64,000 nucleotides of DNA from Candidatus Alistipes stercoravium (GTDB lineage Bacteria > Bacteroidota > Bacteroidia > Bacteroidales > Rikenellaceae), in assembly GCA_019119615.1 (NCBI GenBank), contig DWWQ01000011.1, positions 1-64,000 of the forward strand. Direction: 5' to 3'. Below are positions 26,497 through 39,090 of this stretch, in pieces. The stretch's first letter is position 1; each line of letters opens with the position of its first letter. The notes under the pieces were generated by a model. It searched no databases and was not told the DNA's origin. It saw only the letters and a list, made by a program, of their open reading frames with translations. The position numbers and the translations under genes are program-made.

Positions 26497-27651
26497 CTAT
26501 TTTAGGCGGATCGCCCAAAAATCGTTCCCCGTTTTCGTGAAGGCCACGCGCAGATCTGCTCCGGCGTGAAGCCCCAGGCGGCGCATGATCTCCTCGGCCG
26601 CGAAGGGGAAGTCGCGCTTGAGCACCTCGGCGCCGAGCCCCTTCCAGGCGCGCTTGAGACGCCGCGGGTCGTAGGGTTCGATGCGCTCGATTTCGCAGAC
26701 ACGCCCCAGCACCCCTTCGGGACGCTCCGCGGCGAATCCGTAGGAGTTCTCGCTCCAGCAGTCGGCGCGTCCGGCCAGGTGGCATCTGACGAGCCGCGCC
26801 TTCTGCAGCGCCACGTCGGGGATCACCAGCCAGCGGTAGCGCTCCGGGTCGAACGCCGGAGGCGGCGTCAGCACCTCCGCCTCCCCGGCGCCCTCCGCCG
26901 TAAAGGATCCCATTCCGAGGGCCGTGGCCGTCCGTGCAGGACCCCGGCCGTCGGCATAGACGAGCACCTCCTTGCACTCGCCGTCGAGCGAGAGGACCTC
27001 CACGCGGCTTTGCGGGAAGAGGCGCAGGGCCTCCGCCACGTCGAACAGCGGCGAGTTCTTGAGGCAGAGACGCGGCGCGGCGCGCACGATGAGCGGGCGC
27101 AGGGCGAGGATGTCGGGCGAGCAGGCCTCCAGCCGCAGCTGCTTGAGCCCCTTGTCCGAGCGGCGGTCGGGATCGGCGTAGATCCAGTCGAAGTGCAGCC
27201 CTTCGCGGGCGAGGTACTCCTCGGCGCGCAGCGCAAGGAGCTCGACGTTGCGTACGCCGAGGCGCGCGAGGTTTTCGGCCGTGATGCGCGCCAGCAGGGG
27301 GTCGCTCTCGAGGGCCACGACGCGGCGGAAGCGGCGGCTCAAATAGAGTGTATCGACCCCGAGGCCGCACGTCAGGTCCAGCACCGCATCGCCCTCGATG
27401 CACTTGTGCGCGGCGCACGCTTCGCTCGACGCCTGCTCGAAGGCCCGCGGGGGCAGGATGCACTGCGCCGCGGCGAAGCTCGGGAGCTTGTGCCGCGCGC
27501 GGGCGAGGTACTTGACCTGCGTGGCCACCAGCCGCGCATGGGGGATGCGGGTGTCGAGGGCCACCTCCAGCGGGTCGCGGCCCGCAGCGGCGGCGACCGC
27601 CCCGCGAAGTTCGGGCGTTTGCAGCAGGGTATATTCTTCGGGCGTTATCAT
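26497..27651 (-). CDS. Class I SAM-dependent methyltransferase (THUMP-like C-terminus)
   Basis: VLDLTCGLGVDTLYLSRRFRRVVALESDPLLARITAENLARLGV; WIYADPDRR. Confidence 0.82.
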   Translation of the reverse strand: MITPEEYTLLQTPELRGAVAAAAGRDPLEVALDTRIPHARLVATQVKYLARARHKLPSFAAAQCILPPRAFEQASSEACAAHKCIEGDAVLDLTCGLGVDTLYLSRRFRRVVALESDPLLARITAENLARLGVRNVELLALRAEEYLAREGLHFDWIYADPDRRSDKGLKQLRLEACSPDILALRPLIVRAAPRLCLKNSPLFDVAEALRLFPQSRVEVLSLDGECKEVLVYADGRGPARTATALGMGSFTAEGAGEAEVLTPPPAFDPERYRWLVIPDVALQKARLVRCHLAGRADCWSENSYGFAAERPEGVLGRVCEIERIEPYDPRRLKRAWKGLGAEVLKRDFPFAAEEIMRRLGLHAGADLRVAFTKTGNDFWAIRLK

Positions 27652-29129
27652 CGGGATAAAAATAGCCTTTTTTTCGGTTCGTAGCTCCACGCAAGGAGCG
27701 TCAGCAACGCATAGGCCGCATAGAGGGCCGCCGTCCATCCCTCCCCGAGCGTCGTCTCGACGGTGCCCTGGGGCATCGCGGCGACCCAACGGGCCAGGGC
27801 GTTGATCCCCTCGGCCGCGGCACCGACCGGCAAGGCTACCACGGGCGCCAGCCATGCCGCCGGGAGAAGCAGCCACAGCGCCCCGCCGAAGACGACGACC
27901 GTCGCCAGCAGGATCGCCACGGGATTCACCAACACGCCGACGAGCGGCACCAGCGAGAAGGTATGGGCCACGAGAGGCGCCGTGGCCAGCGTCGCCGCAA
28001 GGCCGATCAGGTAGGCCTCCCCGACCCAGCGCACAATGCGGCTGCGGCCGCGCAGCCGCCGGCAGAGGGGCACGCCCCACACGAGGATCCCCGCCACGGC
28101 GAGGAACGAGAGGCTGAAGCTGATGTCGCCGATCCAGGCGGGATTCCAGAGGAGCATGCCGAAGGCCGCCGCGGCCAGGGCATTCAGGGCGACATACTCC
28201 GAGGCCGAGGCGAGGGCCGTCTGCAGCAGCGTGCACATGACGGCGGCCCGCACGGCACTGGGCGGGAAACCCGCCGCGGCGACGAAACACCACACGGCCG
28301 CAACGACCGCGACGTTGCGCAGCAGATGGCCCCGGCGCAGCAGGGGCAGCCACCCCAGCAGCAGGTTCACCAGCGCGAAGACGATGCCCGTGTGGAGGCC
28401 CGAGACGGCCAGCAGGTGCGAAAAGCCGCTGCGCGAATAGGCCTCGCGCAGCTCCGGCGTGATGCCGCTGCGGTCGCCGGCCGTCATGGCGCGCACCACG
28501 GCCGAGGCGTCGTCGGAAAGGGGCAGGCGTCCGAGCGACGCGACGGCCCGGAGATGGATGCCGGGAGCCTGCGGCGGCAGCTCCTCAAGCAGGGTCGAGG
28601 GACCCGCCCACATCGTTCCGGCGTAGCCGCGGCGGTGCATCAGGCGGCGGTAGCTCTCCGCACCGCCCCGGAAGTCACGGAGCGTGGCGCGGCACACGAG
28701 GCGCTCGCCGCCGGAGAGATGCAGCGCCGAATCGGCATAGAGCCGCACGCGTTCGTGCACGGCGTGCCACCGTCCCGAATCGGGGTCGCGCCACAGCCGC
28801 ACCCGGGCATCGGCCATCGCATAGCGACCCCGGTCGGCGGGCGCCTCCTCCACGACGATCTCCCAGAGGGTCGCCACACCGCGCGGCACCGCAACGGGAC
28901 GTTCGTGCAGCTGCGCCGTGCCGAAACCCGCCGCGCAGAGCATTCCCATGAGCGCCGGGGCGGCCCGCAGTAGCAGGGCCACGACGCCGCACAGCACGAA
29001 AGCCCCTGCGGTAAACCACAGGGGCAACGTGAAACGTTCGGCCAGGAGGATGCCGGCGGCGAAGGGCACCAGGACCTTCAGCATCGGCATGCACTCGAGG
29101 CGCCGGAGCAGCTGCTCGATCGAAAACAT
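27648..29129 (-). CDS. comEC: ComEC/Rec2-family competence protein
   Basis: AMTAGDRSGITPELREAYSRSGFSHLLAVSGLHTGIVFALVNLLLGWLP; GFPPSAVRAAVMCTLLQTAL. About 490 aa, so it lacks the beta-lactamase-like C-terminal domain of longer homologues. Confidence 0.9.
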   Translation of the reverse strand: MFSIEQLLRRLECMPMLKVLVPFAAGILLAERFTLPLWFTAGAFVLCGVVALLLRAAPALMGMLCAAGFGTAQLHERPVAVPRGVATLWEIVVEEAPADRGRYAMADARVRLWRDPDSGRWHAVHERVRLYADSALHLSGGERLVCRATLRDFRGGAESYRRLMHRRGYAGTMWAGPSTLLEELPPQAPGIHLRAVASLGRLPLSDDASAVVRAMTAGDRSGITPELREAYSRSGFSHLLAVSGLHTGIVFALVNLLLGWLPLLRRGHLLRNVAVVAAVWCFVAAAGFPPSAVRAAVMCTLLQTALASASEYVALNALAAAAFGMLLWNPAWIGDISFSLSFLAVAGILVWGVPLCRRLRGRSRIVRWVGEAYLIGLAATLATAPLVAHTFSLVPLVGVLVNPVAILLATVVVFGGALWLLLPAAWLAPVVALPVGAAAEGINALARWVAAMPQGTVETTLGEGWTAALYAAYALLTLLAWSYEPKKRLFLSR

Positions 29130-29157
29130 GGCGGCGGACGCAGGTCGGTTCTACGGA

Positions 29158-29165
29158 CAAAGATA
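29158..29165 (-). promoter_or_regulatory. -7 element TATCTTTG for comEC
   Basis: CAAAGATA on plus strand, 29 bp upstream of 29129. Confidence 0.55.
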
Positions 29166-29191
29166 CGAATTTCGTCCGAAAACAGGGCTGC

Positions 29192-29593
29192 CTACCGCAC
29201 GAAGAGTTCCCAGCCGCGCTCGACCTCCTCGCGGTCGGCCTTCACGCCGTTCTCCACGCGCGAAATCGAGGCCGCGACGGGGACCATCGTCCGCCGGTCG
29301 CGCGTGTCGAGGCGCTCGTCGGGATCGAGGCCCGTATCGCCGGCCACGGCGCGGATGTAGGCGTCGGTGCGGTTCTCCGAGGGCGGGGCCCAGCGCGAGA
29401 TCATGCCCCGCAGCGTGTCGAGGCCGTAGCGGCGACGGTAGGTGTCCAGCAGCACGAAGATGGCGCGGTAGCCCCAGGCCAGCGATTCGAACTGCCGGAA
29501 CTCCGGGTCGCGCGACGGGCGCACCTCGCCCAGGTAGCGCACCCGCGAGAGGCGGATGTTGCCCGGGTTGCAGTTCTCCAGGCCGCGGCTCAT
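29192..29593 (-). CDS. Phage-type peptidoglycan hydrolase / 'structural protein P5'-like lysin
   Basis: SRGLENCNPGNIRLSRVRYLGEVRPSRDPEFRQFESLAWGYRAIFVLLDTYRRRYGLDTLRGMISRWAPPSENRTDAYI: pattern seen in Bacteroidota prophage lysins. Confidence 0.75.
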   Translation of the reverse strand: MSRGLENCNPGNIRLSRVRYLGEVRPSRDPEFRQFESLAWGYRAIFVLLDTYRRRYGLDTLRGMISRWAPPSENRTDAYIRAVAGDTGLDPDERLDTRDRRTMVPVAASISRVENGVKADREEVERGWELFVR

Positions 29594-30012
29594 GGCTCCA
29601 CCTCCCTTCGGATCCGGCGGTGGACGTAGCGTCGCAGCCAGCGGAAGAGCGGGGCGTCCGAGAGCTGCGCGGCGTTCTCGAGGAACGACCACAGCTCGAC
29701 GCCGCAGGTGAAGCCCGTGAACAGGCGGGCGATGTGCAGGTCCATGAAGTCGAGCACGCAGCAGTCGATGAGCCACGCCATGGCGATCGCCGTTACGGTG
29801 AGCGCCAGCTTGAGGACCGTGCGCCACGCCTCGTGGCTCTCGAAGTACCATTTGCGCCCCTCGCGGTGCGCCAGGGCCCGGTCGGCCGCCACGCCCGAGA
29901 GGAAATCGATGGCGATGAAGGCCACGGCCGTGGCCACCAGGGGCCCGATCGGCGCAAAGAGCGCCAGCAGCCCCAGCGCCGTGCCGCTAAAGAGTCTGTA
30001 CAAAACCTCCAT
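29590..30012 (-). CDS. Phage holin-like membrane protein
   Basis: TM-rich N-terminus (GTALGLLALFAPIGPLVATAVAFIAIDFLSGVAADR), overlaps the lysin start by 4 bp. Confidence 0.72.
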   Translation of the reverse strand: MEVLYRLFSGTALGLLALFAPIGPLVATAVAFIAIDFLSGVAADRALAHREGRKWYFESHEAWRTVLKLALTVTAIAMAWLIDCCVLDFMDLHIARLFTGFTCGVELWSFLENAAQLSDAPLFRWLRRYVHRRIRREVEP

Positions 30013-30460
30013 CGGTCGAGCAGCGTTTGAGGATGTTTTTTTGGGGATCGTATTCGGGGAACTCCGCGCGGTGTACGTCGAGGTAGTCCGTGGCCCGGCG
30101 CAGGAGCGTCCGGATCTCGGTGCGGAGGGCCCGGCAGAGGCAGCGCAGGGCCTCCCCGTCGGCCGGTTCGCTCCACGACGAGCGGGGTGCCGTCGTGCCG
30201 CAGGCTCCCGTGAGGATATCCAGCCGGGGCTGGAGCAGCAGACGCACGCAGAGCGCCGCGGGAGCCGCGAGGTACGCCTCGCGGAACTCCCCGTAGGCAC
30301 CCCCGAGCAGCTCGTCGTAGAGCTCCTGCCCGAGGACCGGAACGAGGTAGCGGTGCTCCGCGGCGGCGATGTCGGCCTCCGCGATGATCCCGGGAGGCAG
30401 CGTTTCGCCCTCCCGGAAGGCGAGGCGCAGGGCCTCGGCGGGGGTTATCAGGGTGTTCAT
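29987..30460 (-). CDS. Phage head-tail connector/DUF6712-like protein
   Basis: MNTLITPAEALRLAFREGETLPPGIIAEADIAAAEHRYLVPVLGQELYDELL; position between portal and lysis genes. Confidence 0.5.
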   Translation of the reverse strand: MNTLITPAEALRLAFREGETLPPGIIAEADIAAAEHRYLVPVLGQELYDELLGGAYGEFREAYLAAPAALCVRLLLQPRLDILTGACGTTAPRSSWSEPADGEALRCLCRALRTEIRTLLRRATDYLDVHRAEFPEYDPQKNILKRCSTDGGFVQTL

Positions 30461-30481
30461 ATTCGGAAGAGGGTTTCTTGG

Positions 30482-30503
30482 AAAAAAGCGTCGGCCGACG
30501 CTT
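30482..30503 (-). terminator. Candidate leftward Rho-independent terminator inside the phage-like cassette
   Basis: On minus strand AAGCGTC-GGCC-GACGCTT followed by T's (18-bp perfect palindrome 30486-30503). Confidence 0.55.
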
Positions 30504-30595
30504 CGGACGTGTTGCCAACGACCCCGGAGGGGTGGATCCGCCGTGCCGGCGACGGAGGGTCAGACCCCACCGCGAAGGGCGCATCCGGGACGACG

Positions 30596-31822
30596 TCAGC
30601 CGATGCTTGTGATGTTGTATTTCGAGATCTCCGAGAGGAAGGCCTGCTGCCGCGGGTCCTCGGGATCGTAATCGAGGCCGTCGGCCTTGCGGGCCTCCCA
30701 GACCTTCATGTAGATGGGTTTCGAACGCGTCGGCGGGCGGTTGATGATCTCCAGCGACGAGGTGTCGAAGCCCAGCAGCTCGGAGATCACCCGGCGAATG
30801 GGCTCCGTGAGCTCGGCCTGCTCGGCGAGGATCACCGTATTGAGCGCTACCTCGTATTCGTGGAGGATGCGCTCGGCGCTGAATCCCGAGCTGTAGTCCA
30901 GGCCGCTCAAGGTCCGGAACCACGAGTGCGCCACGACGATGTCCGCGGTGGCCTGCTCGTGCAGCGACTTCCAGTCGCCCTCGTTCTGCGAGGCGATGGG
31001 GATGAAGCGCGAATTGTCGTCGTCGCCCCCTTCGCGGATCACGAACATCACCTGCCCGGGGTTTCCGGCGAACTTCCGCTCGGCCAGCCGCACGATGCGT
31101 TCGGCGTCGGCCTCGTTGCCCGCCGAGGAGTCGAGCATCATGACGCCCGACAACTGGAACGAGTTGTCCAGGCGCGAGATGTTCCACCGGTCGGTCTTGT
31201 AGGCGATGGCCGAGACGTTCAGTCCGGCGATGTAGGGCGGCACGCCATAGTGCTCGAAGGCGGGTTCGTAGTCCTTGTAGTGGATCATCGTGCGGAGCGT
31301 GCCGTCGGCCTGCTCCTCGAAGAGCGGGTAGAGGGGCAGCGTGCGGGCCTCCTCGGCGCGGAAGGCGCTCCAGTCGTGGTGCAGCAGGATGTGCCGCGAG
31401 TCGCGGGCCACGCGGCAGCGCGTGGCGTCCTGATGGTAGAACGAGAGGAAGGTATGCCCGGGGTCGGTAACCACCTCGAGGAAGGCGTTGCCGAAGAGGG
31501 CCTTGTCGAAGGCCAGCTTGTTGAGCAGCTGCCGGAGGCTCTCGCCCTCGCCGTTCACGCGGCGGATGAAGGCCGCGAGCTGCGGCTCGTGCTCCCCGTC
31601 GCAGGTGAAGCCCTTGCCGGAGATGTAGTCGGCCTTGTCGTTGATGATCCGGCGGTGGGTTGTCGAGCGGCGCGCCATCAGGGCCAGGGCCATCGGGAAG
31701 AGGTTGTCGTCGCCCCACCGCCAGAAGGCGTCGCTCTCGACGCGCGTCGTCCCGAACGAGATGTAGGGATCCGTACGGTTGGCGACGCCGATCGCCGGTC
31801 TGAATTTTTTCGCTTTGTCCAT
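30596..31822 (-). CDS. Phage portal protein
   Basis: WRWGDDNLFPMALALMARRSTTHRRIINDKADYISGKGF...GNAFLEVV...EYEVALNTVILAEQAELTEPIRRVI: portal-like N-terminus and layout. Confidence 0.78.
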   Translation of the reverse strand: MDKAKKFRPAIGVANRTDPYISFGTTRVESDAFWRWGDDNLFPMALALMARRSTTHRRIINDKADYISGKGFTCDGEHEPQLAAFIRRVNGEGESLRQLLNKLAFDKALFGNAFLEVVTDPGHTFLSFYHQDATRCRVARDSRHILLHHDWSAFRAEEARTLPLYPLFEEQADGTLRTMIHYKDYEPAFEHYGVPPYIAGLNVSAIAYKTDRWNISRLDNSFQLSGVMMLDSSAGNEADAERIVRLAERKFAGNPGQVMFVIREGGDDDNSRFIPIASQNEGDWKSLHEQATADIVVAHSWFRTLSGLDYSSGFSAERILHEYEVALNTVILAEQAELTEPIRRVISELLGFDTSSLEIINRPPTRSKPIYMKVWEARKADGLDYDPEDPRQQAFLSEISKYNITSIG

Positions 31823-31883
31823 ATCGCAGGTTCGCTTGCCGGGGGCCGCCCGCAACGCATGTGCGGGCGGTCCCGAAGGCGGT

Positions 31884-32861
31884 TTACTGTTTGTAGAAGT
31901 AGGTGATGAGGCTCTCGTCGAGGATGCCGCAGCCGGCCATGAAGACCGCACGCTGGCGGTTCTCCATCTCGTCGGGGTTGTACCACATGCGCACCTCGTT
32001 GCCGGGCATGTCGGCCGTATTGACCGCCAGTACGAGGTTGCGACGGTCCGTGAGCATGCAGAACGACTTGTGGAACGAGGTTCCGGTCAGGTAGCTGCCC
32101 AGGCGCACGTCGATGATCGGGATGCCGTGGTAGGCGAGCGTCTTGCGGCCGTTCACCGCATCGACATAGGCCGCGTCGGCGCCCTTCGCGTCGAGGTACT
32201 TTTCGTAGAGATGGCAGATGTCCGAGGTTACGAAGTAGGCGAGCTGGCCGTCGGCCTTGAGGTCCTGCGTGCGGGTCGAGGCCTGGGTCCACAGTCCGTC
32301 GAAGAGCTCGACGACCTTCTCGGGCGAGGTCAGGTCGGCATCCGCGTAGGTCTCGTTGTAGATCTCCTCGGAGGATACCTTGGCGTTGATGAGCTTCAGG
32401 AAGCCGTCGAAGGTGTTGTAGCCCGTGCCGGCGGAGGTGTCGCCCACCCACATCGTCGCGCGCAGGTTCTCGGCCAGCGCCTGGCGGAAGAGGGCCGTCT
32501 CGGCCTTCTCGAGGTCGGTGCCCGAGAGGTCGTCCATGTGGACGTTGGTGATCGCCGAGATCTTCTCGTAGACCATCGAGAAGTAGTCGGCCGCCGAGAA
32601 GCCCATCTCGGCCTTCACGCGCTTGAGGTCGATCTCGCGCTCGATCTTCGTGGCCGCGTCGCCGCCCGACCAGCCGGCCGCGGAGTACTTCTGGAGGATG
32701 TTGCGCTGGCCGTCCCACAGCTGGACGTGCGTGGGCGTCGGCATGTTGTAGAGGACGCGCACGCCCAGATCCTGGGCCGACACGCCGGTCAGCATCGGAC
32801 GGAAGAAGACGTTCTCGAGATCCGCGCCGGTGTACTGCTTGGCATTTTCAAGGTAAATCAT
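31884..32861 (-). CDS. Putative major capsid protein
   Basis: 325 aa soluble protein between portal and ClpP-like protease; MIYLENAKQYTGADLENVFFRPMLTGVSAQDLGVRVLYNMPTPTHVQLWDGQRNIL; assignment partly by context. Confidence 0.6.
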   Translation of the reverse strand: MIYLENAKQYTGADLENVFFRPMLTGVSAQDLGVRVLYNMPTPTHVQLWDGQRNILQKYSAAGWSGGDAATKIEREIDLKRVKAEMGFSAADYFSMVYEKISAITNVHMDDLSGTDLEKAETALFRQALAENLRATMWVGDTSAGTGYNTFDGFLKLINAKVSSEEIYNETYADADLTSPEKVVELFDGLWTQASTRTQDLKADGQLAYFVTSDICHLYEKYLDAKGADAAYVDAVNGRKTLAYHGIPIIDVRLGSYLTGTSFHKSFCMLTDRRNLVLAVNTADMPGNEVRMWYNPDEMENRQRAVFMAGCGILDESLITYFYKQ

Positions 32862-32937
32862 GGTTGTGAAAGTTTTTTGAGAGATTTGTGGATTTTGTCG
32901 GTTTCGCCGTCCGGGAAGCTCCCGGGCGGCTTTTTTA

Positions 32938-33810
32938 TCAGCTGTGGAAGCACTTGGCGTCCTCGGCGTAGGCCCGTTCGTTGGCCGAGCGCATCGCCTC
33001 GCCGTAGGAGGGATCCTCGCAGGGCTCCGTGCGCGTAGGCGCCACACGCTCCCGGGCCGCCTCGGCCGCCGATATCGAGCGGCGGCGCAGTTCGGCCTCG
33101 TCGGAGGCGAAGTGCAGGACGTTGCGATCCTCGGGGAGCTCCTCCTCGGCGCGCAGCCCGAGCCCTTCAAGCAGGCGGTTCCAGCCGCGCGAGAGGTTCT
33201 TCGCCAGTCCCGGGGCCGGGCTCTCCGCCGCCTCGATCACGCGGTCGGCCAGTCCGGCGATCACGGCCTCCGCGGGCGAGAGCCAGCGGCCGTTGCCGTG
33301 GTTTTCGGCCATCAGGCGCTCGAACTCCTCGACGGGGCGTCCCGAGCGGGCGGCGTAGACTCCGGCGATGCGGGCGTCGGTCTGACGGAGCAGTTCGAGG
33401 CGCTCCTCGAGCTCCGCGGCGTTGCCCTCGGTCGAGCACATCGCCCGGTGGATCAGGTAGAGGGCGTTGGCCGAGATTTCGCGGCATCCCGCCGAGGCCG
33501 CCTGGGCGATGATCGTCGCCGCCGAGGCCGTGTAGCCGTAGCAGCGGGTCGTGATGCGGGCCCCGAGCGAGCGCAGGGCGTCGTGGATGAGCAACGCGTC
33601 GTTCACGTCGCCGCCCGTCGAGCGGATCTCGACCACCACCTCCGGGGCCTCGATCTCCGAGATGCGGCGCACCGCGTCGCGGAACTTCTCGTAGGTCGCC
33701 ACCCGGGCATCCGGCTCCTCGAACTGCCACTCCTCGGGAACGCCGATCGTCCCTTCGATCTCGATCGTGCAGCTGCCGGCCTTGTCTTTGATTTGGATTT
33801 CCGATTTCAT
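32938..33810 (-). CDS. ClpP-like (S14) head maturation protease
   Basis: VVEIRSTGGDVNDALLIHDALRSLGARITTRCYGYTASAATIIAQAA and NALYLIHRAMCSTEGNAAELEERLELL: ClpP serine and histidine regions. Confidence 0.85.
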   Translation of the reverse strand: MKSEIQIKDKAGSCTIEIEGTIGVPEEWQFEEPDARVATYEKFRDAVRRISEIEAPEVVVEIRSTGGDVNDALLIHDALRSLGARITTRCYGYTASAATIIAQAASAGCREISANALYLIHRAMCSTEGNAAELEERLELLRQTDARIAGVYAARSGRPVEEFERLMAENHGNGRWLSPAEAVIAGLADRVIEAAESPAPGLAKNLSRGWNRLLEGLGLRAEEELPEDRNVLHFASDEAELRRRSISAAEAARERVAPTRTEPCEDPSYGEAMRSANERAYAEDAKCFHS

Positions 33811-33813
33811 GAT

Positions 33814-34074
33814 TCAGTGTTTGAAAGTGTTGTAAAAAACGGTCCGTACCTTTTCGTAGGAACAGCAGAAGATATCCGACACGACGTGCATCGCCTCGCA
33901 GCGCCGCATGCCCTCCCGTTCGAGGCGGTGCACCTCCTCCCGGATCGCCAGCTGTTCGCAGCCGCGGCGCGAGAGAACCCCCAGCTCCAGGAGGCGCTCC
34001 ACGGCCTGGGCGGCCGTCAGTCCCTCGATCTCGCGGCGGGCGGTCTCGGCCAGTATCGTATCGATGCGTGTCAT
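33814..34074 (-). CDS. Small 86-aa protein of the phage-like cassette
   Basis: MTRIDTILAETARREIEGLTAAQAVERLLELGVLSRRGCEQLAIREEVHRLEREGMRRCEAMHVVSDIFCCSYEKVRTVFYNTFKH; overlaps the upstream tail-like ORF by 4 bp. Confidence 0.6.
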   Translation of the reverse strand: MTRIDTILAETARREIEGLTAAQAVERLLELGVLSRRGCEQLAIREEVHRLEREGMRRCEAMHVVSDIFCCSYEKVRTVFYNTFKH

Positions 34075-36434
34075 AGGGCGTCCTCCTCCAGCCGGTCGAA
34101 TTCACAGCGCGCCAGCCCCTGCGCCGGGTCGTACTTGCCCACGCTCCGCAGCAGGGCCCTCACCACACCGCGGCCCGTGTCGATGCGGAAGACCGAGCGG
34201 ATGTCGGGACCTCCGGTGCCGGGTGCGAAAAGCGCGGCATACTCTCCGGGGGCGATGCGCAGCGTGAGGGTGATGCGCTCGCGGAGCGCCTCGCGCCGCG
34301 TCTGGCGGTCGTAGTAGCGGTGAAGCCCCTGTGCGCCGTCGCGGTCCTCGAAGCAGAGCGTGAAGGGCTCCGCCGCGTCGTCGCCCGCGAAGTGGAAGGC
34401 CACGAGCGGATAGGAGGCCTCGTCCGAGGGGTATCCCCACCGCTCGCCATCGGGCAGGGGGTGCATCCCGACGTAGCGGACGATGCGCGGCGAGAAGTTC
34501 GTGCCGTCCTCCTCCAGGTCGTCGCGGTCGCCGACCTCGGGCAGCAGCGCCGAAGGGGCATTGAGGTAGTGGCCCACGGAGTCGATCGTCGGGTAGAAGA
34601 GCGGGTTGCGGATCGTCTGCTCGCCCTGCAGGGCCGCCGTCGAGGTGCAGTCGGCGCTCCAGGCCCCGAAGGTGCCGCCGTTCTCCGCGTCGTAACGGTT
34701 CACGGCGCCGTCGCCCTCCCGGTAGCACCACGTCCGCCGTTCGTGGATGTCGAAGGCATGGTCGCGGCGCTCGACGCCCTGCGAGAAGTCCGTGCGGGCG
34801 CTCCAGTCCGCCTCGGAGCCCGCACCGAAGAGGTCGTCGGACGGCTCGATCCAGATCCGTTTGGCCGCCTCCTCGGTGTAGAAGCGCAGGTTGAACATCT
34901 GCGCGAGGGCCTCGAGCAGCTCGACCTGCCGGATGCGGTGCTGCGCGACGTCGGTAAAACGGATCTGTTCGCCGAAACCCGGCCCGGAGAGAAAGCGCGG
35001 CGTGAGCGAACAGCTCTTGTCCAGTTCGAGGCGCATCCCCTCCTCGGCCCCGGCGAAGTAGATCTGGTCGAAATACTTGGGCGACGAGGGGCCGAGGCGT
35101 TCGGAGGCCGTGCGCATCCGCAGCTCGACGGTCGTCTCGCCCGTCTCGCCGATGTAGCCGGCGTAGAGGGCCCAGTCGCCCGTGTAGCTTGTCCAGGACG
35201 ACCCTTCGAGGATCTCCAGCACGGGGTCGGAGAAGCTCCCCGAGGACGGCGTGGAGACCAGCGTCGAGCGCACCGCGAACTGTGCCCAGTCGGAGAGCAG
35301 GCCGTTCTGGCGGTAACGCAGACGGTAGCTGGCGCCGTCGCGGTGGTCGAAGACGACGATCCGGTAGGAGAAGTTCGCGCGGAGCGAGCCGCGCAGATCC
35401 TCGTAGCGGTTGGCCAGCGTGAAGGAGAACTCCGAGCCGGGCCCGAAGTAGATCGTGTCGAAGCCGGTCAGGCGCGTCCGCGAGAGGATCCGGTGGGCGG
35501 TGGTGTACTTGAGGTAGTATTCGAAGCCGACGCTCGTCTCGACGAGGGGCGTGAAGCAGATCCGCTTGCCGTCGAGGGCGAAGCAGCCGCCGTTGTTGTA
35601 GAGCCCCTCGACCGGTGCGCCGTCCGCATCGACGCTCTGCGGCGTGGCCGTCTCGACGATGTTGCCCACGGAGTTGAGCACACTCAACGGATTGGCAATC
35701 ACCTTGCCGACCTCGTTGGCCGTCGCCGAGGCGGTGGAGAGCCTCCGGGCGAGGAAGCCCATGCGGGCCTCGGCCGCCGCGGTGTCCCGCGAGGAGTAGG
35801 CGCCGCTCATGTAGAGCGAGCGGAAGAAGTCCGAAGCGAGGAAGCGGCTCTCGATGCGGTAGCCGGCCTCGGCGAAGATCCGCTCGACGAGCGTCGCGAC
35901 ATGCAGGAAGGGGTGGTAGTCGTCCGTCGAGAGGAGCCGCTCGTTGGGCAGCAGGTCGGTCGGGCTGGCCGACCGGGGGTATTCGTCGCGGTGGACGGGG
36001 AAGAAGCGCACGGGGGTCGCGGCCGTCCAGCTGCTGCAGATCTCCGTGGGCGTGAGCAGCGCCGTGTAGTCGATGCCCAGCGTGTTGAACATCCTCAGCG
36101 AAGCGTTCGCCGCCCAGCCGGCCCCGCCGTATCCGATCTCCAGCTCGTAGCCCTCGTCCGAAGCCGCCAGCAGGCGGACCCGGCCGCGGAAGAGCTCGGC
36201 GCCGCCCTCCGTGAGGCAGGCCTCGTGCGCCGCGTCGTTGAATTTCGCGAGGGTGTGCAGCTCGCGGGCAAAGCCCGTCGCCTCGTCGTTGCGGGGCGTC
36301 GCGGGGATCGTGATCTTCCACTTGCGTCCGTCGCGGCAGGCCTCGATGTCGGCCGTCTGCGCCGCATCCCAGGCCGGAAGGAGCAGCCGCTCCGTACCCA
36401 GATCACAGGATTTGTTGTCGATCGTCAGTTCCAT
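34071..36434 (-). CDS. Large tail/baseplate-like protein (787 aa)
   Basis: MELTIDNKSCDLGTERLLLPAWDAAQTADIEACRDGRKWKITIPATPRNDEATGFARELHTLAKFNDAAHEACLTEGGAELFRGRVRLLA; context with portal, capsid and lysis genes. Confidence 0.55.
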   Translation of the reverse strand: MELTIDNKSCDLGTERLLLPAWDAAQTADIEACRDGRKWKITIPATPRNDEATGFARELHTLAKFNDAAHEACLTEGGAELFRGRVRLLAASDEGYELEIGYGGAGWAANASLRMFNTLGIDYTALLTPTEICSSWTAATPVRFFPVHRDEYPRSASPTDLLPNERLLSTDDYHPFLHVATLVERIFAEAGYRIESRFLASDFFRSLYMSGAYSSRDTAAAEARMGFLARRLSTASATANEVGKVIANPLSVLNSVGNIVETATPQSVDADGAPVEGLYNNGGCFALDGKRICFTPLVETSVGFEYYLKYTTAHRILSRTRLTGFDTIYFGPGSEFSFTLANRYEDLRGSLRANFSYRIVVFDHRDGASYRLRYRQNGLLSDWAQFAVRSTLVSTPSSGSFSDPVLEILEGSSWTSYTGDWALYAGYIGETGETTVELRMRTASERLGPSSPKYFDQIYFAGAEEGMRLELDKSCSLTPRFLSGPGFGEQIRFTDVAQHRIRQVELLEALAQMFNLRFYTEEAAKRIWIEPSDDLFGAGSEADWSARTDFSQGVERRDHAFDIHERRTWCYREGDGAVNRYDAENGGTFGAWSADCTSTAALQGEQTIRNPLFYPTIDSVGHYLNAPSALLPEVGDRDDLEEDGTNFSPRIVRYVGMHPLPDGERWGYPSDEASYPLVAFHFAGDDAAEPFTLCFEDRDGAQGLHRYYDRQTRREALRERITLTLRIAPGEYAALFAPGTGGPDIRSVFRIDTGRGVVRALLRSVGKYDPAQGLARCEFDRLEEDAL

Positions 36435-37408
36435 GTCATGGCGGTGTTTTGTCGGTCGCGGATATCGATTTCGAGGCAGCAGAGGTTCCCCAGGCGGCGG
36501 ACGACCGCCTCGTCGGTCGCCACGTCGATCGGCGTACAGCTATCCTCGCCGACGACCCACACCTCGGGCGACTCGACCAGCTCGGCCAGTGCCGTGAGCA
36601 CAGCCTCGGTCTCGTAGGCCGAGACGAGCGTGCGCGTCGCCTCACGGCGGCGGGGCACCGCAACCAGCCCCTCGGGTCCCTCGGCGCGGAGCTTCTCGAC
36701 CTGCACGGTCGTCGTCCGCACGACGGGGAAGCTGTACTGCTCGACCGAGCCGGCGCTGCTGCGCCACGCCACGCGCACGGCCTGCTCGGCGGCCGGCACG
36801 ACGGTGTATTCGACCGTGGCGATCCCGTCGATCTCGACCGTCAGCGTGTCGGCCCCGGGGAAGTCGCGCGTGTCGAGGACGAAGAGCACTGGACCCTTCA
36901 GAAAGGCGGAGTAGCTCTGAGCCGTCATCGTGTCGGCCGAGCGGGCCGTAACGGTGGCCTTGACCGTTCCGGAGTCCGGGGCGAGGAGCGTCAGTTCGTC
37001 GCGCGCTCCCTCGGGGATGAGACGTTGGAGGGGGAGGGTTGTCAGCAGAGCCGGGGCGGCCACCTGCGTGCGGCCGGCCAGGAAGGTACGCTCGGGAGCC
37101 GTCGCCGCAGCCCCGTCGGGGAGGGTTCCCGAGGGTCCGACGGCCACCGTGGCCGTAACCGTGCGGCCCGTGGCGGCGTAGAATCCCGTGTCGCTCACCA
37201 CGGGCAGGAAATGCAGTGCGCGGCGCAGGAAGGGGGCGGCATCGAAACGGGCCGCGGCACTGGCGACGAAGCGCAGCGTGCCGTAAAGCGTCGAGCCGCT
37301 CCGGTCGGCGATGCGGATGTCGAGGTCTTCGGCCGCGGAGTGCTCCACGGCGTAGAGCACCTCGGCGCCGAGCGGCGCATACTGGGACGGAATCTGTGAG
37401 AAGGTCAT
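36425..37408 (-). CDS. Tail/appendage-like protein (327 aa)
   Basis: MTFSQIPSQYAPLGAEVLYAVEHSAAEDLDIRIADRSGSTLYGTLRFVASAAARFDAAPFLRRALHF; first gene of the cassette, overlaps the next by 10 bp. Confidence 0.5.
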   Translation of the reverse strand: MTFSQIPSQYAPLGAEVLYAVEHSAAEDLDIRIADRSGSTLYGTLRFVASAAARFDAAPFLRRALHFLPVVSDTGFYAATGRTVTATVAVGPSGTLPDGAAATAPERTFLAGRTQVAAPALLTTLPLQRLIPEGARDELTLLAPDSGTVKATVTARSADTMTAQSYSAFLKGPVLFVLDTRDFPGADTLTVEIDGIATVEYTVVPAAEQAVRVAWRSSAGSVEQYSFPVVRTTTVQVEKLRAEGPEGLVAVPRRREATRTLVSAYETEAVLTALAELVESPEVWVVGEDSCTPIDVATDEAVVRRLGNLCCLEIDIRDRQNTAMTWN

Positions 37409-37605: not shown

Positions 37606-37691
37606 CGTGGATAAACCGTGGATAAAATGTGAATGGATGTGGATAAGTCTACACAACCCGCTGGTACCGAATGGTCTCCGATTGTTGATAA
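37606..37691. promoter_or_regulatory. Cluster of four DnaA-box-like sites
   Basis: CGTGGATAA at 37606-37614 and 37617-37625, TGTGGATAA (exact reverse complement of TTATCCACA) at 37638-37646, TGTTGATAA at 37683-37691; all in the same orientation. Confidence 0.65.
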
Positions 37692-37730
37692 GCGCCCCCG
37701 GCGGGGCTGTGCGGGTGTGGATTCCGGAGG

Positions 37731-37762
37731 CAAATATACGACACGGCGACCCCCCTTGTCAA
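37731..37762 (-). promoter_or_regulatory. Leftward promoter of the phage-like cassette: TTGACA-N18-TATATTTG
   Basis: Minus strand TTGACA (37757-37762) and TATATTTG (37731-37738), 18-nt spacer. Confidence 0.6.
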
Positions 37763-37772
37763 GAGGCCGGCG

Positions 37773-37792
37773 CATTTTTTCCACGAAAAATG
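37773..37792. repeat. Inverted repeat CATTTTT-TCCACG-AAAAATG
   Basis: 7-bp arms; resembles the IR at 5117-5138. Confidence 0.5.
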
Positions 37793-37825
37793 GAAAAGCG
37801 CGCCCGGGAATTCGCCGAAAGGGGT

Positions 37826-37833
37826 TATCTTTG
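37826..37833 (+). promoter_or_regulatory. -7 element TATCTTTG for the GH27 gene
   Basis: TATCTTTG, 21 bp upstream of ATG 37855. Confidence 0.6.
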
Positions 37834-37854
37834 TTACCGGAAAACGAAAACCCA

Positions 37855-39090
37855 ATGAAATCCGTCATGAAACATCTGATTCTCCTCTGCGTCGCCCTCG
37901 TCGGCGCCGCGACCGCCTCGGCCCAGAAGTGGGAGGGGCTGGCCGACACGCCCCCGATGGGGTGGAACTCCTGGAACAAGTTCGGCTGCAACATCGACGA
38001 GCGGATGATCCGCGAGATGGCCGACGCGCTGGTCGATACGGGCCTCGCGGAGGCGGGCTACGTCTACATCAACCTCGACGACTGCTGGCACGCCCCGGAG
38101 CGCGACGCCGACGGATTCCCGCAGTGCGACACGACGCGTTTCCCGAGCGGCATGAAGGCCCTTGCGGACTACGTCCATGCAAAAGGGCTCAAACTGGGCA
38201 TCTACTCCGACGCCGGATGGACGACCTGCGCCGGACGTTTCGGCAGCCTCGGCCACGAGTACCAGGATGCCCTGCAGTACGCCCGCTGGGGCATCGACTA
38301 CCTGAAATACGACTGGTGCAACACGGCGGATATCAATCCCAAGGGGGCCTATACGCTCATGCGCGAGGCGCTGCGCGCCGCCGGGCGCCCGATCCTCTTT
38401 TCGATCTGCGAGTGGGGTTCGAACAAGCCCTGGGAGTGGGCTCCCGAAATCGGCCACATGTGGCGCACGACGGGCGACATCGGCCTCTCGTTCTCCGACC
38501 CGGAGGTCTTCGAGGGTCCGTGGAAACCCCGCACGGTGCTGCAGAACGTCGATACGAACGCCCCGCTGCGCCGCTACGCCGGCCCGGGCCACTGGAACGA
38601 CCCCGACATGCTCGAGGTGGGCAACGGCATGACGGTCAATCAGGACCGCGCGCACTTCACGCTCTGGTGCATGATGGCCGCGCCGCTGATCCTGGGCAAC
38701 GACCTGCGCACGATGACCGACGAGACGGCGGCGATCCTCACCGACCGCGAGGTGATCGCCATCGACCAGGATCCGCTGGGCGTGCAGGGGCTGCGCTACG
38801 CCACCGACAACGGCATCGAGATCTGGTTCAAGCCCCTCGCCGACGGCGACTGGGCCTTCTGCCTCTTCAACCGCACGCACGAGGAGCGCACCTACGAGAT
38901 CGACTGGCAGCTCTACTGCTTCACCGACACGGAGGTCTCGCAGCGCTCCACGGACTTCGACCGCATCGTCTACGAGGGCCGCGACCTGTGGAACGGCGGC
39001 AAGAGCTTCCGCACGGACCGTCCGCGCAGCGTGGTCATCCCGGCCGAGGATGTCGTCCTCTACCGTCTGAAACCCGTCGCCGGGCGCTGA
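37855..39090 (+). CDS. Alpha-galactosidase, glycoside hydrolase family 27
   Basis: Signal peptide; PPMGWNSWNKFGCNIDERMIREMADALVDTGLAEAGYVYINLDDCWH; LKYDWCN; WNDPDMLEVGN. Confidence 0.96.
   Translation: MKSVMKHLILLCVALVGAATASAQKWEGLADTPPMGWNSWNKFGCNIDERMIREMADALVDTGLAEAGYVYINLDDCWHAPERDADGFPQCDTTRFPSGMKALADYVHAKGLKLGIYSDAGWTTCAGRFGSLGHEYQDALQYARWGIDYLKYDWCNTADINPKGAYTLMREALRAAGRPILFSICEWGSNKPWEWAPEIGHMWRTTGDIGLSFSDPEVFEGPWKPRTVLQNVDTNAPLRRYAGPGHWNDPDMLEVGNGMTVNQDRAHFTLWCMMAAPLILGNDLRTMTDETAAILTDREVIAIDQDPLGVQGLRYATDNGIEIWFKPLADGDWAFCLFNRTHEERTYEIDWQLYCFTDTEVSQRSTDFDRIVYEGRDLWNGGKSFRTDRPRSVVIPAEDVVLYRLKPVAGR

Follow-up and report, generated by a model that had tools for sequence, protein, structure and literature searches.

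What is a compact set of phage-like genes, with no packaging or integration gene beside it, doing in the chromosome of a gut commensal? The question is raised by a cassette at positions 29192-37408, on the minus strand, of the window, the 64,000-nucleotide stretch of contig DWWQ01000011.1 from Candidatus Alistipes stercoravium analysed here. We find that the cassette probably forms one half, with the structural and lysis genes, of a two-locus element resembling a gene transfer agent (GTA), with a minimal tail, independently domesticated from a tailed phage before the radiation of the Rikenellaceae. Judged from their genes alone, the two loci look like a built-in machine that packs and releases the bacterium's own DNA. 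To our knowledge, few GTA lineages have been described.

Gene content and predicted functions

The cassette consists of nine intact, tightly packed ORFs of 327, 787, 86, 290, 325, 408, 157, 140 and 133 aa, as an earlier note on this DNA had described. They are transcribed in the order g1, g2, g3, ClpP protease, capsid, portal, DUF6712 protein, holin and endolysin, with overlaps of 10 bp (g1/g2), 4 bp (g2/g3), 26 bp (g7/g8) and 4 bp (g8/g9). GC content equals that of the flanks, which are comEC downstream and GH27/corA on the other side. Terminase, integrase, repressor and tape-measure ORFs are absent from the cassette and from its immediate neighbourhood; on this point, as on comEC and GH27 as flanking genes, the first reading holds.

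Profile searches support the head and lysis genes. The ClpP-like head-maturation protease (290 aa; 32938..33810, minus strand, as for all genes of the cassette) matches phrog_94 (1e-39) and Pfam CLP_protease (9e-26), and its residues S96, H121 and D189 are invariant. The putative major capsid protein (325 aa; 31884..32861) matches phrog_1623 at 2e-8; the same profile is matched by 32 of 38 homologues, at best with 2e-15, and phrog_212 (major head protein) by 6 of the 38. A search of the capsid profile against PDB sequences gave no HK97-fold match and nothing meaningful, and the identity rests on phage-family profiles. The portal protein (408 aa; 30596..31822) matches phrog_11226 (6e-23), Pfam Phage_portal (6e-10) and the PBSX-type portal TIGR01540 (1.7e-15, yet below the cut-off of that profile). 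The DUF6712 protein (g7, 157 aa; 29987..30460), recognised by Pfam DUF6712 at 1.5e-5, may be a head-tail connector, to judge from its position. It is followed by a holin (140 aa; 29590..30012; Pfam Phage_holin_4_1, 4e-11) and a P5-like endolysin (133 aa; 29192..29593; phrog_873, 3e-44). The calls of protease, capsid, portal, holin and lysin made from the letters are therefore backed by phrog and Pfam profiles.

For g1 (327 aa; 36425..37408) and g2 (787 aa; 34071..36434), AlphaFold models were built on 67-sequence alignments and reached pLDDT values of 95 and 91.7, respectively. The g1 model has a tail-tube/neck-like domain, together with Ig-like domains, and Foldseek matches it to the monocin tail tube, the SaPI1 neck and the 80alpha baseplate (prob 1.00 over ~130 aa). 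The g2 model resembles tail hub or tip proteins (Mu gp44, monocin tip, Milano baseplate), and in BFVD it matches proteins of uncultured Caudovirales across most of its length (E 5e-40). Weaker PDB matches link g2 to jelly-roll proteins, which might reflect an inserted binding domain. Both proteins evolve fast, with 21-60% identity, and the models agree with their description as tail-like. The remaining gene, g3 (86 aa; 33814..34074), is hypothetical, and its homologue in a relative prophage sits between the tape measure and ClpP. Together, profiles and models predict that the cassette encodes a head, a connector, a tube-like protein, a tail tip and lysis functions.

Distribution, chromosomal site and selection

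The capsid gene is present in 115 of 120 same-genus species genomes, nearly always as a single, stop-free copy, and all 80 genomes from other families lack it. The portal is found in 243 of 268 Rikenellaceae species genomes (106 of the 110 of high quality) and in 17 of 22 genera, with essentially one per genome. In an even sample of the order, matches came from five Rikenellaceae genomes and from 4 of 388 non-Rikenellaceae genomes, the latter at 32-39% identity. Named matches belong to Alistipes, Tidjanibacter and other Rikenellaceae.

Gene order is identical in the roughly 80 genus loci that were fetched, which for an ordered gene set is far beyond chance. The chromosomal site, between corA and comEC, is common to much of Alistipes: corA lies within the locus in 41 of 79 genus loci, comEC lies directly downstream (within 3 kb) in 24 of the 79, and the shared site spans species whose comEC identity is as low as 28%. 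In the window, comEC (27648..29129, minus strand), a host gene outside the phage set, begins 62 bp past the lysin stop on the same strand (27648-29192). A similarly tight gap of 15-64 bp is seen in many of the 24 loci with adjacent comEC, which is a possible read-through partner of the cassette. The GH27 gene between cassette and corA (37633-39090) was found in some species only, and so appears to be a variable insertion beside the conserved site.

Selection was estimated as dN/dS by the Nei-Gojobori method in species pairs with dS of ~0.15-0.5, more distant pairs being saturated and left out. Values are 0.01-0.13 for the portal, 0.05-0.2 for ClpP, mostly 0.07-0.27 for the capsid and 0.24-0.43 for g1. 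The cassette genes are kept intact by purifying selection; the relaxed selection that the earlier note had named as evidence against an intact device is not seen.

An unlinked terminase locus

If the cassette belongs to a particle whose packaging genes lie elsewhere, as had been proposed, a large terminase (TerL) should be found in the genome. The general profile phrog_2 gave weak partial ATPase matches with similar scores in all families, along with sporadic strong ones; since it was uninformative, the TerL of a relative phage was used as the probe instead. The PF05876 TerL family has no match in the window's own genome. With the TerL of the relative prophage as first query, an orphan TerL, 55-61% identical, was found in nearly all genus genomes searched and in none of 48 genomes of other families. 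The window's own genome has an intact copy at contig C52:84081-85478, and this protein, as second query, has matches in 243 of 268 family genomes, including 106 of the 110 of high quality. Walker A, Walker B and nuclease motifs are invariant across 20 orphan TerLs and the phage TerL.

TerL is unlinked to the cassette, lying 2.6 Mb away in one genome (G202) and ~2.0 Mb away in another (G247). In 20 of 20 genus loci its neighbours are a same-strand 95-aa gene (p95) and a divergent 223-aa HTH-S24 repressor of CI/LexA type (phrog_4, 5e-37), and the repressor and/or p95 also adjoin TerL in most other genera checked. No small terminase was recognised beside TerL. In two other genera the motor is linked to head genes: L193 reads repressor, 78 aa, 88 aa, TerL, 91 aa, ClpP and capsid start, and in L194 TerL lies beside ClpP. 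The 88-aa gene ahead of TerL in L193 may encode a small terminase. This arrangement is probably the ancestral linked state; the loci are short, and ordinary prophages would also fit.

Head, portal, packaging motor and lysis are all encoded, as in a GTA, with the motor at the second locus. This strongly supports a domesticated particle with its packaging genes elsewhere. The tailocin-like device that had also been considered is not favoured, as the cassette has neither sheath nor tape measure, and the head genes (capsid, portal, protease) and TerL have all been retained.

Pairwise distances of the cassette genes, TerL, the repressor and corA correlate (r 0.64-0.94, Mantel p 0.001), so both loci descend with the host. 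In the portal tree, the cassette portals form one clade excluding true phages (support 0.76). These are chromosomally fixed, vertically inherited structural genes of phage origin, kept intact by selection, as in GTAs. The phage-like gene content and its separation from the terminase would also suit a phage satellite or a still-mobile prophage that moves itself through a helper or the orphan TerL. However, the site is shared, there is no integrase at the locus, nearly all species have a single copy, and distances track the host; a satellite of the capsid-forming PICI type would have its own integrase and mobility, which the cassette does not. No self-mobilising or replication genes were found at either locus, and we consider such an element highly improbable. 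We reject a recently deleted prophage, the other origin first suggested, because inheritance is vertical across the family, selection is purifying and much of the genus shares the site.

Some genomes lack part or all of the system. Two high-quality Alistipes genomes, G110 (L155) and G258 (L156), keep the repressor-p95-TerL block and have no portal match, possibly through recent cassette loss or an assembly gap, which indicates that the system is dispensable and counts against the GTA reading. In the sampled genomes of genera g82, g85, g87 and g88, neither portal nor TerL is among the matches listed, which suggests joint loss or absence across whole lineages.

A complete relative prophage and the reduction of the tail

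One Alistipes genome (G006) has, in addition to its own cassette, a complete prophage that belongs to the same phage family (L111/L109; G006:C31, ~18-52 kb). A full prophage in relatives had been expected to speak against domestication; one does exist, and it stands alongside the cassette of the same genome. Its genes are ordered integrase-like, TerS, TerL, 220 aa, 138 aa, 183 aa, g1, g2, an 893-aa tape measure, g3, ClpP, capsid, 171 aa, portal, DUF6712 and holin. The genes shared with the cassette stand in the same order, and g1, g2, g3, ClpP, capsid, portal and g7 are homologous. Unlike the cassette, the prophage has an integrase-like gene, TerS, a linked TerL, the tape measure and further structural genes. 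The protease-capsid-portal order, which the earlier note had set apart from that of HK97-like phages, is real but not aberrant: its presence in a complete phage makes it native to the phage family, with no sign of rearrangement.

By eye, one ORF of this prophage (L111 10401-11681) reads as a reverse transcriptase; small lectin-like genes lie close by, which recalls a diversity-generating retroelement. An ORF in an IMG/VR relative of the phage family (L029 7632-8618) resembles a reverse transcriptase in the same way and adjoins a possible variable-protein gene.

The cassette has no tape measure at the position, between g2 and g3, where the prophage has one, and no cassette has a full-length one. 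Elsewhere, the tape measure is absent from the window's own genome and from 38 of 41 genus genomes, with two weak partial matches. The 220-aa gene that follows TerL in the phage is absent in 40 of the 41 and present only in the prophage. Many Alistipes have a gene of ~130-170 aa between capsid and portal, which the window's clade has lost. Other Rikenellaceae genera retain the 220-aa gene, and at least one the 138-aa gene; at the tape-measure position they have a protein of 74-244 aa whose conserved C-terminus shows weak similarity (E 0.03-0.14) to the end of the prophage tape measure. This pattern suggests stepwise shortening of the tail.

The loss of the tape measure, of the 220-aa gene and, in the window's clade, of the gene between capsid and portal could also be taken as the decay of an old prophage into a functionless remnant, as could a stop in the portal frame in G043:C26 (L074) and truncated g2 and ClpP in G100:C11 (L054). 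Damaged cassettes are rare, however, the frames are open in ~80 loci over family-level divergence, and dN/dS in close pairs is 0.01-0.3 for most genes. The data on selection and conservation refute decay.

A reduced tail, together with the retention of the lysis genes and of hub and g1, the latter two evolving fast, is what one might expect of a domesticated particle with a PBSX-like role in killing or kin lysis. Such a particle may package DNA and would benefit the cell through producer lysis or through killing of competitors via the hub, with no productive gene transfer. Against this, TerL, portal and capsid protease are needless for killing, yet they are among the best conserved genes, and we regard this explanation as rather unlikely. 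We give a slightly smaller chance to a capsid domesticated for another host function, either as a storage compartment for protein or DNA or to interfere with infection by related phages through defective capsid or portal components. Interference would have a target, as related complete prophages occur in the same genus; however, the lysis genes, the tail hub and TerL have been kept and are inherited together, and PADLOC gave no match to known defence systems.

Regulatory sequences

A conserved promoter-like element, TTGACAAGGGGG...TATATTTG, lies upstream of g1 on the same strand in 55 of 71 loci (37731..37762 in the window, minus strand). In the leader that follows it, DnaA-box-like 9-mers lie on the same strand, with 107 forward and 8 reverse sites over 70 loci against ~4.6 forward sites expected from shuffles; the species are non-independent, so the comparison does not amount to a formal test. 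The window has four such sites, at 37683-37691, 37638-37646, 37617-37625 and 37606-37614 (span 37606..37691, minus strand). Some cassettes of other genera, located elsewhere in the chromosome, are preceded by similar sites, which therefore appear to move together with the cassette. A replication origin at the cassette was considered from these sites, but coarse skew sampling in one complete genome did not indicate one.

At the TerL locus, the intergenic region contains an inverted repeat, TTCAA-N3-TTGAA, exact or near-exact, beside a promoter-like -7 element. As an operator shared with the cassette it was rejected: the exact repeat lies upstream of the cassette in only 1 of 70 loci, which argues against a shared regulon through this motif. 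No shared operator linking the cassette and TerL loci was found, which counts against the two-locus element.

Proposed mode of action

For the GTA-like element, we propose that upon induction TerL would be derepressed and the cassette switched on. The capsid would assemble and ClpP would mature the head. TerL would then pack DNA, probably host DNA in a headful-like mode, because no small terminase was recognised. A minimal tube-plus-hub tail would be added, holin and lysin would burst the cell, and the released particles may deliver DNA to relatives, or kill, through that tail. For delivery, tube-like and hub proteins are encoded and the tape measure is absent; as no small terminase, tape measure or tail-completion gene for the cassette was found in Alistipes, a delivery-competent tail is uncertain.

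A wider claim, which we hold to be evenly poised, is that this is the first GTA lineage of the Bacteroidota, near-universal in the Rikenellaceae. It would be a minimal-tail viriform whose motor has left the structural genes and is now controlled by a CI/LexA-type repressor. In part of Alistipes its structural operon points towards comEC, and particle making and DNA uptake could then be co-expressed. If true, the evolution of a GTA through loss of tail genes, splitting-off of the motor and takeover by a host regulator could be traced over more than 200 species, with the genera that have TerL beside ClpP and the complete relative phage as comparators. Gene flow among gut commensals, in a dominant gut family, would then also seem to have a route not recognised so far.

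Comparison with known systems

PBSX of Bacillus subtilis is a domesticated element that packages host DNA and kills instead of transducing. By profile, the cassette portal is distantly related to the PBSX type; PBSX itself occupies a single large locus and has a full contractile tail, whereas the Rikenellaceae system has two loci and a predicted minimal tail. The literature searched, which covered few subscription papers, describes no GTA or domesticated prophage in Alistipes, Rikenellaceae or Bacteroidota, and novelty is thus provisional.

The closest likeness in setting is FpGTA of Faecalibacterium (PMC12946183), also phage-derived, in a gut commensal, near-universal in its genus and split into two operons, with head and lysis functions and probably a short tail or none. 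The division differs: in FpGTA, TerS and TerL stay with portal and capsid, and lysis and baseplate genes form operon II, whereas the Rikenellaceae have head, tail and lysis together and TerL apart with the repressor. Particles and packaged DNA have been demonstrated for FpGTA; the Rikenellaceae system is known from gene content. That faecal VLP study reported GTA-like packaging for other families but not for Rikenellaceae (PMC12946183), which counts against a GTA.

The RcGTA-type GTAs of Alphaproteobacteria (PMC7947584; PMC10883770) share vertical inheritance, several loci, an intact TerL and the absence of self-mobilising genes. They differ in host phylum and apparently in gene order, and the cassette has a ClpP-type head protease and no full tape measure. 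No RcGTA structure is among the best 50 Foldseek matches of g1 or g2, and we infer that domestication was independent of RcGTA.

Several catalogued 'viral' contigs carry cassette genes. L021-L027 in IMG/VR contain the Rikenellaceae cassette and, in the portal tree, are placed within the cassette clade, so they, like other such contigs, are probably bacterial chromosome. Finally, MT838736, deposited as 'Bacteriophage sp.' from human faeces in Mexico, is a fragment of this cassette, and a VLP study of Mexican children (PMC8361208) is its possible source.
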